DNA of 64,000 nucleotides. Origin: Virgibacillus sp. AGTR (GTDB lineage: Bacteria > Bacillota > Bacilli > Bacillales > Amphibacillaceae). The first letter of the stretch is position 1, and each line of letters opens with the position of its first letter. The notes below the pieces were generated by a model, which was not told where the DNA came from, made no database searches, and saw nothing but the letters and a program-made list of their open reading frames with translations. Below are positions 23,140 to 29,319 of the stretch, piece after piece. The translations under genes and the position numbers were made by a program. The stretch spans positions 1 through 64,000 of the forward strand of contig NZ_JAJERH010000003.1 in assembly GCF_016919725.2 (NCBI RefSeq). Direction: 5' to 3'.

Positions 23140-23727
23140 CTATTCTGGTTTACGTTCCATTATTTTATCAATCAGACCATACTCAACAGATTTATGAGCT
23201 GACATAAAGTTATCGCGATCTGTATCTCGCTCGATAACATCTATTGGTTGACCAGTACGCTCTGAAAGAATTTCATTAATTTTTTCACGCATTTGGATGA
23301 TTCTACGTGCGTGAATTTCAATGTCTGTAGCTTGGCCTTGTGTCCCTCCAAGCGGTTGGTGAATCATAACTTCACTGTTTGGTAATGCAAAGCGTTTCCC
23401 TTTTTCACCTGCTGCAAGTAAGAATGCACCCATAGATGCTGCCATCCCTGTGCAGATTGTGGAGACGTCAGATTTAATAAATTGCATGGTATCATATATA
23501 GCCATACCAGCAGTGATAGATCCACCTGGTGAATTAATGTATAACGAGATATCTTTTCCTGGATCCTCTGCTTCAAGGAATAGTAATTGTGCTACAATGG
23601 AATTTGCCACATTATCATCGATGGCACTCCCTAGCATAATGATACGATCTTTTAGTAAGCGTGAGTAAATATCGTAGGCACGCTCTCCACGATTTGTTTG
23701 TTCAATAACTGTAGGTATTAAATTCAT
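23140..23727 (-). CDS. clpP: ATP-dependent Clp protease proteolytic subunit ClpP
   Basis: Serine peptidase that forms the double-heptamer chamber fed by ClpX/ClpC/ClpE. The catalytic Ser98 (GMAASMGAF) and His123 (MIHQPLGG) fall at the canonical numbers when translation starts at ATG 23727 (195 aa). A longer frame reaching 23805 would run into the promoter, so it is not used. GGGAGGAT precedes the start. CtsR control is evident upstream. Confidence 0.98.
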
Positions 23728-23773
23728 GTAAAATCCTCCCTTATCTATTCGAATATCCATTAGATCGGATATA

Positions 23774-23806
23774 TTTATCATAACTAATAGGTCAAAAAAG
23801 GTCAAA
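23774..23806 (-). promoter_or_regulatory. clpP sigma-A promoter with CtsR operator
   Basis: GGTCAAA-AAA-GGTCAAA (23790-23806, read on +) is a perfect CtsR tandem heptad. On the minus strand TTGACC within the first heptad is a -35, followed after 17 nt by TATGAT. CtsR would therefore cover the -35 and spacer. Confidence 0.92.
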
Positions 23807-24457: not shown

Positions 24458-25717
24458 ATGTCGAATAGAAGTCAAATACCTCGAGAAGAAGGAATAGATC
24501 ATACTTTAAGTCTTATAAGAGAAGGATATAGGTATATCTTAAATAGACGTCAAATTTTTAGTTGTGATATTTTCGAGACAAGGCTAGTTGGAAAAAAAGC
24601 GATTTGCATGGGAGGTAAAGAAGCAGCAGAAATATTTTATGACAACGAGAAATTTAAAAGAAAAGATGCAGCTCCTAATCGGGCAGTACAAACATTATTC
24701 GGTAAGAATGGAGTTCAGGCTTTAGATGGACAAGCCCATAGACAACGTAAGGAAATGTTTATGTCGATCATGTCTTCCAATGAACTGGACAGATTGACTG
24801 GAATTATAAGAAAACAATGGAAGTTAGCGGTAGATAAATGGGTGCAAATGGATAAGGTTATTTTTTATGAAGAAGTTAAGGAAATTATGTGCAGAACAGC
24901 CTGCGAATGGATAAGTATACCCGTGTCAGCAAATAAAGTAAAAGGGGTAACGAAAGATTTAGGGGCAATGTTCGAGTCAGTAGCAGCTATTGGCCCCACC
25001 CATTGGCTAGGAAGGAATGCTAGAAATCGTATAGAAAAGTGGGTAGGGAAACTCGTTGAAGAGATTCGTGATGGAAAAGTGAATGTATCTGAAAATAGTA
25101 TTTTGTACAAATTTATTAGGTATCACGATCCATATGGGAATTCTCTTGATACAGATACAGTTGCTGTAGAAGTGATTAATATCTTACGGCCACTTGTAGC
25201 GATTGCTATATTCATCAATTTTATTGCTTTAACAGTTTATCATTATCCAAACGAAACGAAGAAGCTTGAAAGGAGTGATGAGAAATATTCTCTGAAGTTC
25301 ATACAAGAAGTTCGGCGATTCTATCCATTTTTTCCTTTTGTCGCCGGACTGGTAAAAAACGATTTCATTTGGAAAGGGTTTAAATTTGAAGAAGGTACGT
25401 TAACCTTACTAGATCTTTATGGTACCAATCACGATCCAAACATTTGGGAGAACCCTGATGTGTTCAACCCTGATCGGTTTACTACATGGGATGGTGGCTT
25501 ATTTGACTTTATTCCACAAGGTGGGGGAGATTATTTTATGGGGCATCGGTGTGCTGGTGAGTGGGTGACCATAGAGATAATGAAAGTAAGCCTTGATTAT
25601 CTAGTAAATCGAATAAACTATGATGTTCCTGATCAAGATTTAAGTTTTAGTATGGTTAGCATGCCAAGTATTCCCCGTAGTAAAATGGTGATAAAAAACA
25701 TTAGCAAGAGAGAATAA
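24458..25717 (+). CDS. CYP152-family cytochrome P450 peroxygenase (fatty-acid hydroxylase)
   Basis: Closely resembles P450BSbeta (YbdT, CYP152A1), which hydroxylates long-chain fatty acids at alpha/beta carbons using hydrogen peroxide instead of a reductase. Diagnostic features are Arg244-Pro245 (ILRPLVAIA), equivalent to the residues that bind the substrate carboxylate and replace the usual I-helix acid-alcohol pair, EVRRFYPF (ExxR), and the heme ligand Cys365 in GHRCAGE. 419 aa, typical. The start is ATG 24458; GGAG inside an upstream in-frame ATG codon stretch acts as its binding site. It is a single gene with no partner redox proteins nearby, as expected for a peroxygenase. Confidence 0.93.
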
Positions 25718-25828
25718 ATCCATTTTCTATTCTAATTGCGGTTATAGTGAGAGGCTATGTATAGAGGGCGAACAGTCAATTAATGGTTAATTGTCTCCTA
25801 TTGAGATATGAAATATGCGGATTAATGG

Positions 25829-25863
25829 GTGGAATGAGAAGTAAAAAGGAATCCTCATTCCAC
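25829..25863. terminator. Hairpin between convergent P450 and erm genes
   Basis: GTGGAATGAG (25829-25838) pairs exactly with CTCATTCCAC (25854-25863). Only a short T-stretch (CCTTTT) follows on the plus strand, so termination efficiency is uncertain. Confidence 0.5.
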
Positions 25864-25882
25864 AACCTTTTGTAAGTAGATT

Positions 25883-26740
25883 TTAAAAATGGTTTAATTT
25901 CGCTTTTTTTATCTTTGGCCATCTGGATTTTGGAACATACTTTATCATTGTTTCAAATAGGGAACCCCATTGCAGTTCCGTTAAAGATGCAATTGGAGTT
26001 TCATTATTTATTTGAAGATTTCTTTTTAAATGCTTCATTTGCGGTGGTGTAAATATACCTTTTAATGCAATCTCGATAGGATATTGTGGATGTTTAAGTG
26101 CATAATCAGCTAGTCCCCAGAAGATTAAATAATCGCTAATAGGTACAATCGGTTTCGCCTTTCTATTTATTTTAATCACAGCGGAATCAACTTTTGGTGG
26201 CGGGGAAAAATTTCTCCTAGAAATTCCTTTAACATACTGAATATCAAACCACATTTTCCAAGCGATCACATATGATTCCTTCACAAAATTTGATGTAAAT
26301 CTTTTAGCTACACCATTTTCCATTACAATAACCCCACTTTGAAAACCGCTTGAAGGTTTATTAAGAAACATTTTCATAATCGGCGTTGTAATAGCATATG
26401 GAATATTCGAAACAACTACAAATGGCTCTTGAGGTAATGAAATACGTAATATGTCTTGCTTTATGATTATAGTGTTTTTCATTTCAAGTTGTTTTAATTT
26501 CTTTATGAAGTTTGAATCGTATTCTATAGCGAGAACCTTTCTTGCTCGGGAGCTTAAAATACTAGTAATTGCTCCTTTTCCAGCTCCTAAATCTAATACA
26601 AGGTCGCTTTTTGAAATACGAGCAATATTTACAATATCATTTATTAAACGCTTATTGTGAATGAAATGCTTCCCACTGAAATTTGATGGAGTTCCAGTAG
26701 ACGATTTTTTATGCTGATATCTCTTCCTGCTTCTTGCCAT
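25883..26740 (-). CDS. Erm(D/K)-like 23S rRNA adenine N6-methyltransferase
   Basis: 285 residues closely following the Erm(D)/Erm(K) type from Bacillus. It would methylate A2058 of 23S rRNA and confer macrolide-lincosamide-streptogramin B resistance. The N-terminus is basic, then TPSNFSGKHFIHNKRLI, SAM motif I LDLGAGKGAIT, catalytic motif IV NIPYAITTPIMK, and FSPPPKVDSAVI. It is distinguished from housekeeping KsgA by the Erm N-terminus, and from other Erm genes by the long leader with an attenuator upstream. AAGAAAGGA precedes the start. Resistance itself is inferred; activity is untested. Confidence 0.9.
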   Translation of the reverse strand: MARSRKRYQHKKSSTGTPSNFSGKHFIHNKRLINDIVNIARISKSDLVLDLGAGKGAITSILSSRARKVLAIEYDSNFIKKLKQLEMKNTIIIKQDILRISLPQEPFVVVSNIPYAITTPIMKMFLNKPSSGFQSGVIVMENGVAKRFTSNFVKESYVIAWKMWFDIQYVKGISRRNFSPPPKVDSAVIKINRKAKPIVPISDYLIFWGLADYALKHPQYPIEIALKGIFTPPQMKHLKRNLQINNETPIASLTELQWGSLFETMIKYVPKSRWPKIKKAKLNHF

Positions 26741-26785
26741 GATTTAACAGTCCTTTCTTAAAATATTTGCATTCGGCTCTGAATG

Positions 26786-26818
26786 CAAAAAAGCCACAGA
26801 CATAGGCGTCTGTAGCTT
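26786..26818 (-). terminator. Attenuator terminator 2 in the erm leader
   Basis: On the minus strand AGCTACAGAC pairs with GTCTGTGGCT over 10 bp and is followed by TTTTTT, 45-50 nt before the erm start codon. It would stop transcription unless an alternative fold is adopted. A further small hairpin (GCATTC/GAATGC) follows. Confidence 0.85.
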
Positions 26819-26920
26819 CCAGTAAACGGAATGCATCATTATGCAGAATGAGATATTGTAAAAAAACTAATCAGCACAAAATGAGCCTTCTTATTTAAAG
26901 AGCTAAAGCAATTTCTCATA

Positions 26921-26956
26921 TAAATAAAAAGGAAAGATTGTATAATCAGTCCTTCC
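26921..26956 (-). terminator. Attenuator terminator 1 in the erm leader
   Basis: On the minus strand GGAAGGACTG pairs with CAATCTTTCC (one mismatch, one wobble), followed by TTTTTATTTA. Together with the hairpin at 26786 it gives the two-terminator leader known for ermK. Confidence 0.72.
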
Positions 26957-27055
26957 TCTCATTTTATTAATAAAATATAGTAATGAAGATTGTTAAAAAT
27001 GAGCAGATTTATCCCGCTTACTCTGTAGCAAAACAGAGCCTTCGAACGTATTAAA

Positions 27056-27094
27056 TTACCGGTTCAAAGTACGGATAATAATAATTCCACCCAT
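27056..27094 (-). CDS. Erm leader peptide MGGIIIIRTLNR
   Basis: A 12-codon frame with a strong AAGGAGGG site, located at the start of a long leader RNA between a perfect promoter and the erm gene. The C-terminal TLNR resembles the end of the ErmD/ErmK leader (PTLNQ). The last codons (ACTTTGAAC) can pair with GTTCGAAG just downstream, so a macrolide-stalled ribosome would change folding. Its role as inducer-sensing leader is inferred from position and form. Confidence 0.82.
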   Translation of the reverse strand: MGGIIIIRTLNR

Positions 27095-27143
27095 AATTTT
27101 TTAACAACCCTCCTTCGTTTAGTTTACACTAGAATTCATTTAT

Positions 27144-27172
27144 ATTATAAATACTGCTAAAGTGTACGTCAA
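27144..27172 (-). promoter_or_regulatory. Sigma-A promoter of the erm leader
   Basis: On the minus strand TTGACG and TATAAT are separated by 17 bp. Transcription would start near 27137, giving a leader of about 400 nt. Confidence 0.88.
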
Positions 27173-27351
27173 TAAAAATTATACTTGCTACTCAACGTAG
27201 TAATAGTTAATTACGATAATTTGAGTAACTCACCATAAAACTTTCGTTCGGATTTATAATTCTTATGTAAAAATATAGTTGTTACATTATCTGTCAATTC
27301 ATCCTTCACATCAAATTATTTTCCATACATATATCTCTCTAATACTCTTCT
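27173..27351. other. Intergenic, nothing recognised
   Basis: AT-rich sequence upstream of the erm promoter with no frame or motif I can support. Confidence 0.4.
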
Positions 27352-27536
27352 TGTTTATCCCGCATATAATTGGCAGTTAGTCTCCAATACCAGTAATAAA
27401 GTGAACCCAATATGGATAAGGGGGGCGACTGCCGGTAAATTGTCCGATTGGTTCAAAGAACTTTAGATCATATCCCTCTGGTACTAACAATCCGTAGGTG
27501 ATAAACCACCCCCCAACTGATTGAAAAAATTCGCTT
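27352..27536 (+). repeat. Dispersed repeat family B, single diverged copy
   Basis: Begins TTTATCCCGCATATAA and carries TGGCAG, AATAAAGTGAACCCAATATGG, GACTGCCGGTAAA and GTCCGATTGGTTCA, all in the order seen in the tandem array at 39.67-40.60 kb. After GGTTCA it has about 30 extra bases compared with the array unit, as does the copy at 52.05 kb. The terminal hairpin is degraded. Confidence 0.85.
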
Positions 27537-27730
27537 TGTCGGAAATTAATGCTTAAACATCTACATTACTTGTTAAATTACGAATAAGAGCAGGAATTTG
27601 TTAATCAGTGTCGTAATATATAGAATAAGTGATTTACTTCTGTAAATTTAATTTACGAATGAAAATAGTAATGGTTTTAGCTAATGTTTACACCTTCTTC
27701 GCATATATATAAGTACGAGCTCCATTATTT
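27537..27730. other. Intergenic, nothing recognised
   Basis: AT-rich stretch between a family B repeat and the holin-like gene. No confident promoter or RNA element. Confidence 0.35.
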
Positions 27731-27775
27731 TTGTTTTGTGGATTCTTTAATCTTATTGTACAGGGGGTGAGAGAC

Positions 27776-28009
27776 ATGGATAGAGGTACGCTTATTCGCA
27801 CGATTGTCTTAGTATTAGCTTTAATTAACCAATTTCTCATTGCAGCAGATTTGAACCCAATACCTGGTACGCACGAACTTTGGGGTGAAATTATTTCGAT
27901 GATTTTTACGGTGTGTGCCAGTGTGTGGGCATGGTTTAAAAATAATTATGTAACAGTAAAAGGAAAGAAGCAAAAAGAAGTATTGCAGGCGAATAACTTA
28001 ATTAATTAA
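27776..28009 (+). CDS. Orphan phage holin (SPP1/XhlB family)
   Basis: 77 residues: MDRGTLIRTIVLVLALINQFL (first transmembrane helix), a short loop with NPIPG, and a second helix ending AWFKNNY, then a lysine-rich tail. This is the SPP1-type/XhlB holin plan. Holins permeabilise the membrane for an endolysin, but no amidase or other phage gene is next to it, so it is probably a leftover or domesticated gene. ATG 27776 follows AGGGGGTGAG; a longer upstream frame is not used. Confidence 0.82.
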   Translation: MDRGTLIRTIVLVLALINQFLIAADLNPIPGTHELWGEIISMIFTVCASVWAWFKNNYVTVKGKKQKEVLQANNLIN

Positions 28010-28517: not shown

Positions 28518-28587
28518 TTAACCCCATTTTTGTTTTAGTTAAAATAGGAGAAGCAGGTTTTGGGTATCCTATAAAAGGGTGATAAAC

Positions 28588-28851
28588 ATGAAAGCAAATG
28601 ATATGGAAAGCAAACGCTTTGATAAAGCACTTGATGAATTTATTGATTTGTTTAATAATCTGGAAGCGGACACACCGATCATACAATTTGGTCAAGACGT
28701 CATTAAAAATATAGAATTAGCAAAACAGAAATATGGTGACGAGGCAATAGATGAAAAAATAAATGCAGTTGTTCGTGAAATGCTGTCCTGGCTAGATTTA
28801 GAAGCTGATGCTAAAGCAGAAGAGAATGCTAAAAAAGACGACGAAGATTAA
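28588..28851 (+). CDS. Small acidic hypothetical protein
   Basis: 87 residues, mostly predicted helical, with a strongly acidic tail (EENAKKDDED) and no signal peptide or membrane segment. I do not recognise it. ATG 28588 has AAAAGGGTGAT upstream, which supports translation. It lies alone between a terminator and the toxin-antitoxin locus; no function can be assigned. Confidence 0.72.
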   Translation: MKANDMESKRFDKALDEFIDLFNNLEADTPIIQFGQDVIKNIELAKQKYGDEAIDEKINAVVREMLSWLDLEADAKAEENAKKDDED

Positions 28852-28997: not shown

Positions 28998-29072
28998 GGT
29001 ATTGTACAATAAGGCTTTCATGGGTGGCGGTTTCACTCCCTGACTGATGAACAGGAGAGGGGGGTGATGCCT

Positions 29073-29150
29073 ATGACAGTGTTCGAAGCACTTGTGCTAA
29101 TGATCTCGTTTGGTTCATTGGTTGTTGCTTTACTGTCACAAAAAAAATAA
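29073..29150 (+). CDS. Small hydrophobic type I toxin (holin-like toxin family)
   Basis: 25 residues, too short for usual gene calling: MTVFEALVLMISFG followed by a hydrophobic run and ending SQKK. The pattern M-x-x-x-EAL-x-LMI-x-FG is that of the Hol-Tox/BsrG/TxpA membrane toxins. The binding site AGGAGAGGGGGGTGAT is extremely strong; an in-frame ATG at 29067 is a possible alternative start. The gene sits between mRNA arms that pair, with an opposing promoter downstream. It would act by disturbing the cell membrane; toxicity is inferred. Confidence 0.85.
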   Translation: MTVFEALVLMISFGSLVVALLSQKK

Positions 29151-29190
29151 CCACCCATAAGCCTGGCAAGCATAGTGGGTAGTTATTTTC
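29141..29190. terminator. Bidirectional hairpin at the toxin 3' end
   Basis: AACCACCCA (29149-29157) pairs with TGGGTAGTT (29176-29184). On the minus strand it is followed by TTATTTTTTTTG, suiting it as terminator of the antisense RNA; on the plus strand only ATTTTC follows. Confidence 0.8.
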
Positions 29191-29319
29191 TATAAACTGT
29201 GTGAGCCGCCCCCTTGAAGGGCTATTGTACATGGCCGTTGGTGTACCAGCACCAGCGGTCTTTATTAAAGTTTTTTCTAAGTCTAGATCAAATGCTTTTT
29301 TATTTTATTCATATTATCT
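29150..29319 (-). ncRNA. Putative antisense antitoxin RNA
   Basis: A transcript from the promoter at 29326-29353 would run leftward for about 170 nt across the 3' untranslated region of the toxin mRNA, including its pairing arm, and end at the bidirectional hairpin. This is the architecture of RatA/TxpA and SR4/BsrG. The boundaries are inferred from promoter and terminator only. Confidence 0.72.
29233..29266 (+). terminator. Terminator of the toxin mRNA
   Basis: GGCCGTTGGTG (29233-29243) pairs with CACCAGCGGTC (29250-29260), two wobbles, followed by TTTATT. It lies directly after the 3' pairing arm. Confidence 0.75.

Follow-up and report, generated by a model that had tools for sequence, protein, structure and literature searches.

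The window, a 64,000-nucleotide stretch of a contig of Virgibacillus sp. AGTR, carries on its reverse strand an erm gene (25883..26740 (-)) coding for a predicted 23S rRNA adenine dimethyltransferase of 285 residues, preceded by a ribosome site AAAGGA at 26756-26751 (-). The protein passes both the curated NCBIfam Erm model NF000499 (242.9 bits, cut-off 212) and Pfam RrnaAD (182.5 bits, cut-off 24), in agreement with an earlier, sequence-only reading of this DNA, and scores 142.2 bits with the RsmA (ksgA) model, under its cut-off of 171. Each class-specific Erm model stays below its cut-off among the matches listed, which cover 25 of 31 families and include no model for Erm(D), Erm(K) or Erm(34). 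The best named relatives are the proteins of Siminovitchia fordii and S. terrae, at 75-76% identity; a Bacillus licheniformis plasmid copy, whose reading frame is broken as read here, is 55.4% identical over 93% of the query. Matches at an E-value of 1e-60 or better occur in 21 of 159 genomes of the same family (own genome counted), in 12 of 397 genomes drawn from the order and in 26 of 398 from the class, and matches at 1e-85 in 4 of 23 genomes in the family of G766 and in 3 of 398 from the phylum. The solved structures, phages and viral contigs searched yielded no relative as near as these.

Housekeeping-like genes flank the locus, namely a 221-aa ORF at 23140-23805, which we take to be ClpP, and a CypC peroxygenase gene, supporting the chromosomal setting proposed before. 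When the DNA was compared with 14 related loci, similarity in 11 of them was confined to one block, from 25878-25902 to 27115-27203, that holds the leader and the gene only; in L004 the similarity is split in two, in L047 it is a single stretch within the gene, and L046 shows none. No flank matches were found by tblastx at 1e-8 over roughly 0.7-3 kb on each side. The limits of the similarity block suggest that gene and attenuator travel together. Two loci from different genera (L008 and L037, genera g1 and g20) have identical Erm proteins and the same leader, which suggests a recent transfer.

A promoter lies at 27144..27172 (-), with a -35 TTGACG (27172-27167), a 17-nt spacer and a -10 TATAAT (27149-27144). 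It had been called perfect and in fact matches 11 of 12 consensus positions. This is the top-scoring of 12 promoter-like sites in 25600-27600 (9.4, sd 2.8, after shuffling), and the TTGA of its -35 is identical across nine of nine aligned leaders. The 12-residue leader and ribosome site described earlier were both recovered: the leader ORF MGGIIIIRTLNR occupies 27056..27094 (-), with ATG at 27094-27092 and TAA at 27058-27056, and starts 354 nt upstream of erm, and its Shine-Dalgarno sequence AAGGAGGG (27108..27115 (-)) lies 13 nt 5' of the ATG. AAGGAGG is present in all ten leaders of the window's class, and Gly2 and Ile4 are each kept in nine of the ten, with synonymous third-base changes. 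As also noted before, the peptide is without the RLR motif, having IIIIR where RLR leaders carry Arg/Lys-X-Arg/Lys (+X+) at the stall site. An Rfam search up to E 1 gave no match at the leader.

An alignment of 26 leaders (A2), in which 16 selected RLR leaders join ten from the window's class (L058 among them), shows a readable leader ORF at each locus and an identical order of elements. Helix A joins the end of the Shine-Dalgarno region (GGTTGTT, 27103..27109 (-)) to an anti-Shine-Dalgarno strand (AACAATC, 26988..26994 (-)), with 97.3% of cells paired; one of its pairs is AU in 12, GC in 10 and GU in 4 leaders, and an example of matched change is GGTTGTT/AACAATC versus GATTATT/AATAATC. Helix B connects the codons around Leu10-Asn11 (CTTTGAAC, 27062..27069 (-)) with GTTCGAAG (27040..27047 (-)), so that the downstream pairing anticipated for the last codons of the peptide is found in 98.6% of cells. 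Both sides have changed in 4 of its 8 pairs, for example CTTTGAAC/GTTCAAAG versus CTTTGAAT/ATTCAAAG (L043, L045), so that RNA pairing accounts, at least partly, for the conservation of the peptide's Leu-Asn end. Hairpin C (GCTCTG...CAGAGT, 27020..27039 (-)) is paired in 97.4% of cells but gives little covariation evidence because it is nearly invariant (4 of 6 pairs unchanged, none with both sides changed).

Two terminators follow. Terminator 1 (26921..26960 (-), -12.4 kcal/mol) consists of a hairpin at 26960-26927 and a T-rich tail; 86.2% of its cells are paired and both sides have changed in 6 of 10 named pairs, the innermost of which fails in 23 of the 26 leaders. Terminator 2 (26787..26820 (-), -18.1 kcal/mol), a hairpin at 26820-26789 with a T-run, has 94.2% of cells paired and both sides changed in 4 of 8 pairs. 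Both were found with our own hairpin script; a simple promoter/terminator scanner listed neither of them and returned two other terminator sites, against 1.1 expected (sd 1.0). Over the five named helices, standard pairs fill 94.1% of 1014 cells, both sides have changed in 16 of 39 pairs, and the covariation score is 0.254 versus 0.155 in shuffled alignments. No shuffle out of 500 matched the observed percentage paired, number of both-side changes or covariation score, and 33 of 500 matched the number of further pair types. Helices slid along the alignment pair in 33.1-46.0% of cells, a comparison biased in favour of the named helices, as these were named from the same sequences.

A candidate antiterminator pairs AGTAAGCGGGAT (27011..27022 (-)) with ATTCCGTTTACT (26821..26832 (-)), and its extension GGCTCTGT at 27040-27033 has a partner, ACAGA(c)GCC (26813-26805 (-)), inside terminator 2, where it spans 5' arm and loop. 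In the window's class, 27022-27011/26832-26821 is a continuous 12-bp helix, with 12 of 12 pairs in eight and 11 of 12 in two of the ten leaders (3-7 of 12 when slid), and the extension forms 8 of 8 pairs in all ten, with one bulged base. Counted as 13 pairs over the 26 leaders, the antiterminator has 82.7% of 336 cells paired (slid control 42.2-59.4%) and three pairs with both sides changed; shuffles hardly differ in percentage paired (82.0%) because most of it is invariant.

With a leader ORF and two terminator hairpins upstream of erm, and with homologous helices that covary in 26 leaders, the layout is on these comparative grounds homologous to the ermD/ermK transcription attenuator, and the ermD/ermK-like double-terminator attenuator of the sequence-only reading is upheld. 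It has in common with the B. licheniformis ermK/ermD attenuator (leader MTHSMRLRFPTLNQ, via L083) a leader ORF with a strong ribosome site, two terminator hairpins, the helix of the Leu-Asn codons, the anti-Shine-Dalgarno helix, hairpin C and an antiterminator before terminator 2; two adjacent terminators are described for erm(K) in PMC4335068. The leaders share Arg8, whereas the window's lacks Ser4, Arg6 of the +X+ and the Phe-Pro codons before Thr-Leu-Asn. S. fordii (L001) and S. terrae (L002) have the same attenuator as the window and the leader MGVIITFRALNC, with Ile-Ile-Thr-Phe in place of four Ile, and no flanking similarity between their loci and the window was found. Alloiococcus otitis (L006, leader MSGIFVIRTLNN) belongs to the same attenuator class, without a terminator-1 hairpin over threshold such as the window has.

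Leaders of relatives were picked by eye, one per locus, from short ORFs with a ribosome site listed upstream. In a first tree of 64 of the 65 kept loci (L084 left out), 46 rows have an RLR-like leader, 13 are without it and 5 have none listed, one of which, L070, shows an RLR frame without a listed start. The leader group of the window comprises MGVIITFRALNC, MGVIITFRALN, MGAIKTYRALNS, MGVIKTYRALNM, MGAIKTYHALNM, MSGIFVIRTLNN and, in the window, MGGIIIIRTLNR. Relative to MTHSMRLRFPTLNQ, these leaders retain Arg8 (His once, L009), have Arg6 replaced and miss two codons before Thr/Ala-Leu-Asn. The residues before Arg8 vary strongly (IIII, IITF, IKTY, IFVI); among the leaders read, L006 carries IFVI, and the window has IIII. 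The L058 leader, MGAVNKSRALNK, keeps Lys-Ser-Arg, which is a +X+; it was grouped with the non-RLR rows in the first tree (among the 13) and counted as +X+ in a second tree of 51 rows. Two distant non-RLR rows carry MIDIFRALNW (L046) and MILIFRVLNW (L047), and L086, from a genome sharing the phylum only, has MGVIITFRALNW. In six distant loci (L073, L075, L078, L079, L080 and L082), the peptide starts about 136-158 nt 5' of erm and ends in RLR/RIR or one residue later, perhaps representing a different attenuator layout.

The second tree retains 51 of 68 rows, 16 having been excluded by hand and L083 dropped as shorter than 200 aa. Excluded were the duplicates L003 and L008, which copy kept rows without +X+, the long branches L017, L080 and L081, as well as L084 and L070, and, as distant, L064, L066, L073, L075-L079 and L082. 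Of the excluded rows, L064, L073 and L075-L082 have an RLR-like leader (L082 with a trailing Lys) and L017, L066 and L084 none that was found; L011 (77 nt of upstream sequence) and L044 were kept with no leader found. On this tree the window falls in a clade of nine rows, all without +X+, with 100/100 support, so its leader, which had been thought new, is not unique. Two changes are required to account for the 11 rows that lack +X+, and these rows form one group in none of 200 bootstrap trees. Leaders with +X+ outnumber those without it in the sample, and the presence of RLR on both sides of the deepest drawn split makes loss the simpler interpretation; on this partial sampling, with the root not inferred, two losses are the best explanation for the absence of +X+. 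The +X+ may itself have been gained earlier in the history, and PMC8298421 sets out two scenarios, of a macrolide-responsive leader first and an RLR motif selected later. S. fordii DSM 16014 has two Erm genes, one with an IITFR leader (L001) and one with an RLR leader (L004). With leaders of both kinds on one chassis, even in one strain, the order of events becomes testable.

The arrangement points to a macrolide-inducible erm gene, probably governed by a ribosome-mediated transcription attenuator like that of ermD/ermK, in which the arrest peptide has changed. In drug-free cells the leader peptide would be made and let go, helices A, B and C would form, and transcription would end at terminator 1 or 2. 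With an erythromycin-type macrolide, the ribosome would halt when about codon 7 (Ile) occupies the P site and Arg8 the A site, covering the Leu-Asn codons and freeing 27047-27011. The freed GGCTCTGT...AGTAAGCGGGAT could then form a duplex with ATTCCGTTTACT...ACAGA(c)GCC ahead of the synthesis of the 3' arm of terminator 2, acting as a kinetic switch. The anti-Shine-Dalgarno region, also freed, may become a competing partner of the terminator-1 5' arm, and RNA polymerase would read through into erm.

With the +X+ lost, we expect arrest to require contact between the nascent chain and a cladinose-bearing macrolide, and ketolides to cause little arrest or none. We predict erythromycin-type macrolides, and not ketolides, as inducers because, according to PMC8298421, positions 6 and 8 (+X+) of ErmDL are critical with telithromycin and largely dispensable with erythromycin, where almost any residue is accepted. 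We infer a cladinose-dependent arrest for the window's clade as a whole, which is without Arg6 and Ser4 and mostly hydrophobic there. In the same paper, Ser4 of ErmDL matters for erythromycin and can be replaced only by Ala or Gly without reduced arrest; position 4 is Ile, once Val, in the window's class, which counts against erythromycin arrest. A need for the cladinose sugar is stated for MsrDL and ErmCL in PMC10314930.

RNA folding, a check suggested by the sequence-only reading, was done with a stalled ribosome and went only part of the way: in the window, masking lowers the cost of opening the terminators, but both still form at equilibrium. Nine or ten leaders of the class were folded, together with seven of the nine scanned RLR leaders (L040 and L012 out); L046 and L047 were added for terminator 1, for which L012 replaced L059 in the footprint-mask equilibrium folding. 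The main mask blocks every nucleotide 5' of the front of a ribosome halted at the presumed stall codon, as was done for mef in PMC4335068. Under this mask, giving up terminator 2 is cheaper in 9 of 10 class leaders (11.2 to 4.8 kcal/mol in the window) and 7 of 7 RLR leaders; for terminator 1 the cost drops in 8 of 9 class leaders and in all seven RLR leaders. Early pairing of the 5' arm of terminator 2 rises from 0.29 to 0.70 in the window. Of the ten class leaders, eight show such an increase, be it clear or slight; early pairing is flat in L058 and lower in L009, where the energy cost also shifts the wrong way for both terminators.

At equilibrium with the stalled ribosome, terminator 2 still forms in 10 of 10 class leaders with a probability of 1.00, leaving 4.8-10.2 kcal/mol, and falls to 0.00-0.49 in 7 of 7 RLR leaders; the probability of terminator 1 is at least 0.91 in 18 of 18 leaders, the known type included. 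When the ribosome is placed at the stop codon, the values hardly differ from those for the stall codon, thus the folding calculation does not single out codon 7. A footprint-only mask at codon 7 has no effect on either terminator of the window at equilibrium and does not change its early pairing; with such a mask, terminator 2 falls at equilibrium in 3 of 7 RLR leaders, and early pairing of its arm increases by at least 0.05 in 5 of 10 class leaders. One of three things must hold for the window's class: the switch is kinetic, the model lacks something, or the element is inefficient. The modelled persistence of the terminators at equilibrium is the main result against a confident claim.

The same equilibrium result would suit a relic, closed attenuator, whose Ile-rich peptide does not stall, whose helices persist by descent and whose erm gene is expressed by weak read-through; the absence of both Arg6 and Ser4, important in ErmDL for telithromycin and erythromycin arrest, leans the same way. 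We consider this unlikely, since a relic should decay, and 10 of 10 distinct class leaders preserve terminator 2 as well as the antiterminator and an intact reading frame. It is quite improbable that the leader is tuned to another ligand or stalls at another codon, with a lincosamide or another macrolide class, for example, as inducer: strong variation before Arg8 is what selection on the inducer range would be expected to produce, but no pointer to a particular other inducer was found here. A hairpin at 26789-26766 directly 5' of the erm ribosome site could hide that site until a stalled ribosome frees it, by translational attenuation as in ermC; given that this stretch varies in sequence and length among class leaders, that two covarying terminator hairpins separate leader and gene, and that the leader starts so far 5' of erm, such control is very improbable. 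There is next to no chance that the switch is the GAAGGCTC direct repeat, read before as an alternative pairing and present in two copies in the window, and we set it aside because none of the other nine class leaders preserves the downstream copy (26890-26883) exactly; the conserved antiterminator by terminator 2, together with the anti-Shine-Dalgarno helix, appears to offer better candidates.

Returning to attenuation of the ermD/ermK kind, the sensor peptides recall those of other systems. IFVI, carried by A. otitis, is presumably the arrest motif of ErmCL, and the hydrophobic residues up to the presumed P site of the window resemble it, with IIII, not IFVI, before the stall codon. ermC differs from the transcriptional layout seen here in being controlled by translational attenuation (PMC5418344). 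MsrDL (MYLIFM) is likewise a transcription attenuator with a short hydrophobic leader, similar to MILIF (L047) and MIDIF (L046); it belongs to a different gene and arrests at the stop codon, as given in PMC10314930. A tentative possibility is that one chassis swaps sensors, the +X+ giving way in the window's clade to an ErmCL-like hydrophobic stretch (IFVI in Alloiococcus, IIII here) and in the MIDIF/MILIF lineage to an MsrDL-like one, and the inducers narrowing from macrolides and ketolides to cladinose macrolides only.

What is new here is a leader in a well-supported clade without +X+; the attenuator kind itself is known. A search of the literature for five leader strings found the RLR string only, with subscription journals mostly outside the search and an earlier mention possible. 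The genus name Siminovitchia is absent among the matches listed for it with macrolide or erm, no text was found with Alloiococcus, erm, macrolide and leader as whole words or with ErmCL and IFVI, and Alloiococcus literature mentioning macrolide and erythromycin exists. Erm leaders were sought about 250 bp upstream of erm genes in PMC11264731; searches for inducible erm based on RLR or on such a distance would miss the present leader. The clade thus offers a natural experiment on the needs of macrolide-sensing leader peptides, and a natural variant could show which antibiotics such switches detect.

The surroundings of the promoter hold several small genes. An open frame at 27377-27565 (-), with 62 codons between stops and no Pfam or PHROGs match, is possibly a gene remnant. 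An SPP1-type phage holin gene (27731-28006 (+)) lies upstream of the erm promoter on the opposite strand, and a gene for a Mistic-like membrane-integrating protein is found at 28579-28848 (+). A BsrG family RNA at 29003-29257 (+) scores 83.5 bits against a gathering score of 55 and encloses a Hol_Tox peptide frame within 29055-29147, so that this is likely a type I toxin-antitoxin locus.
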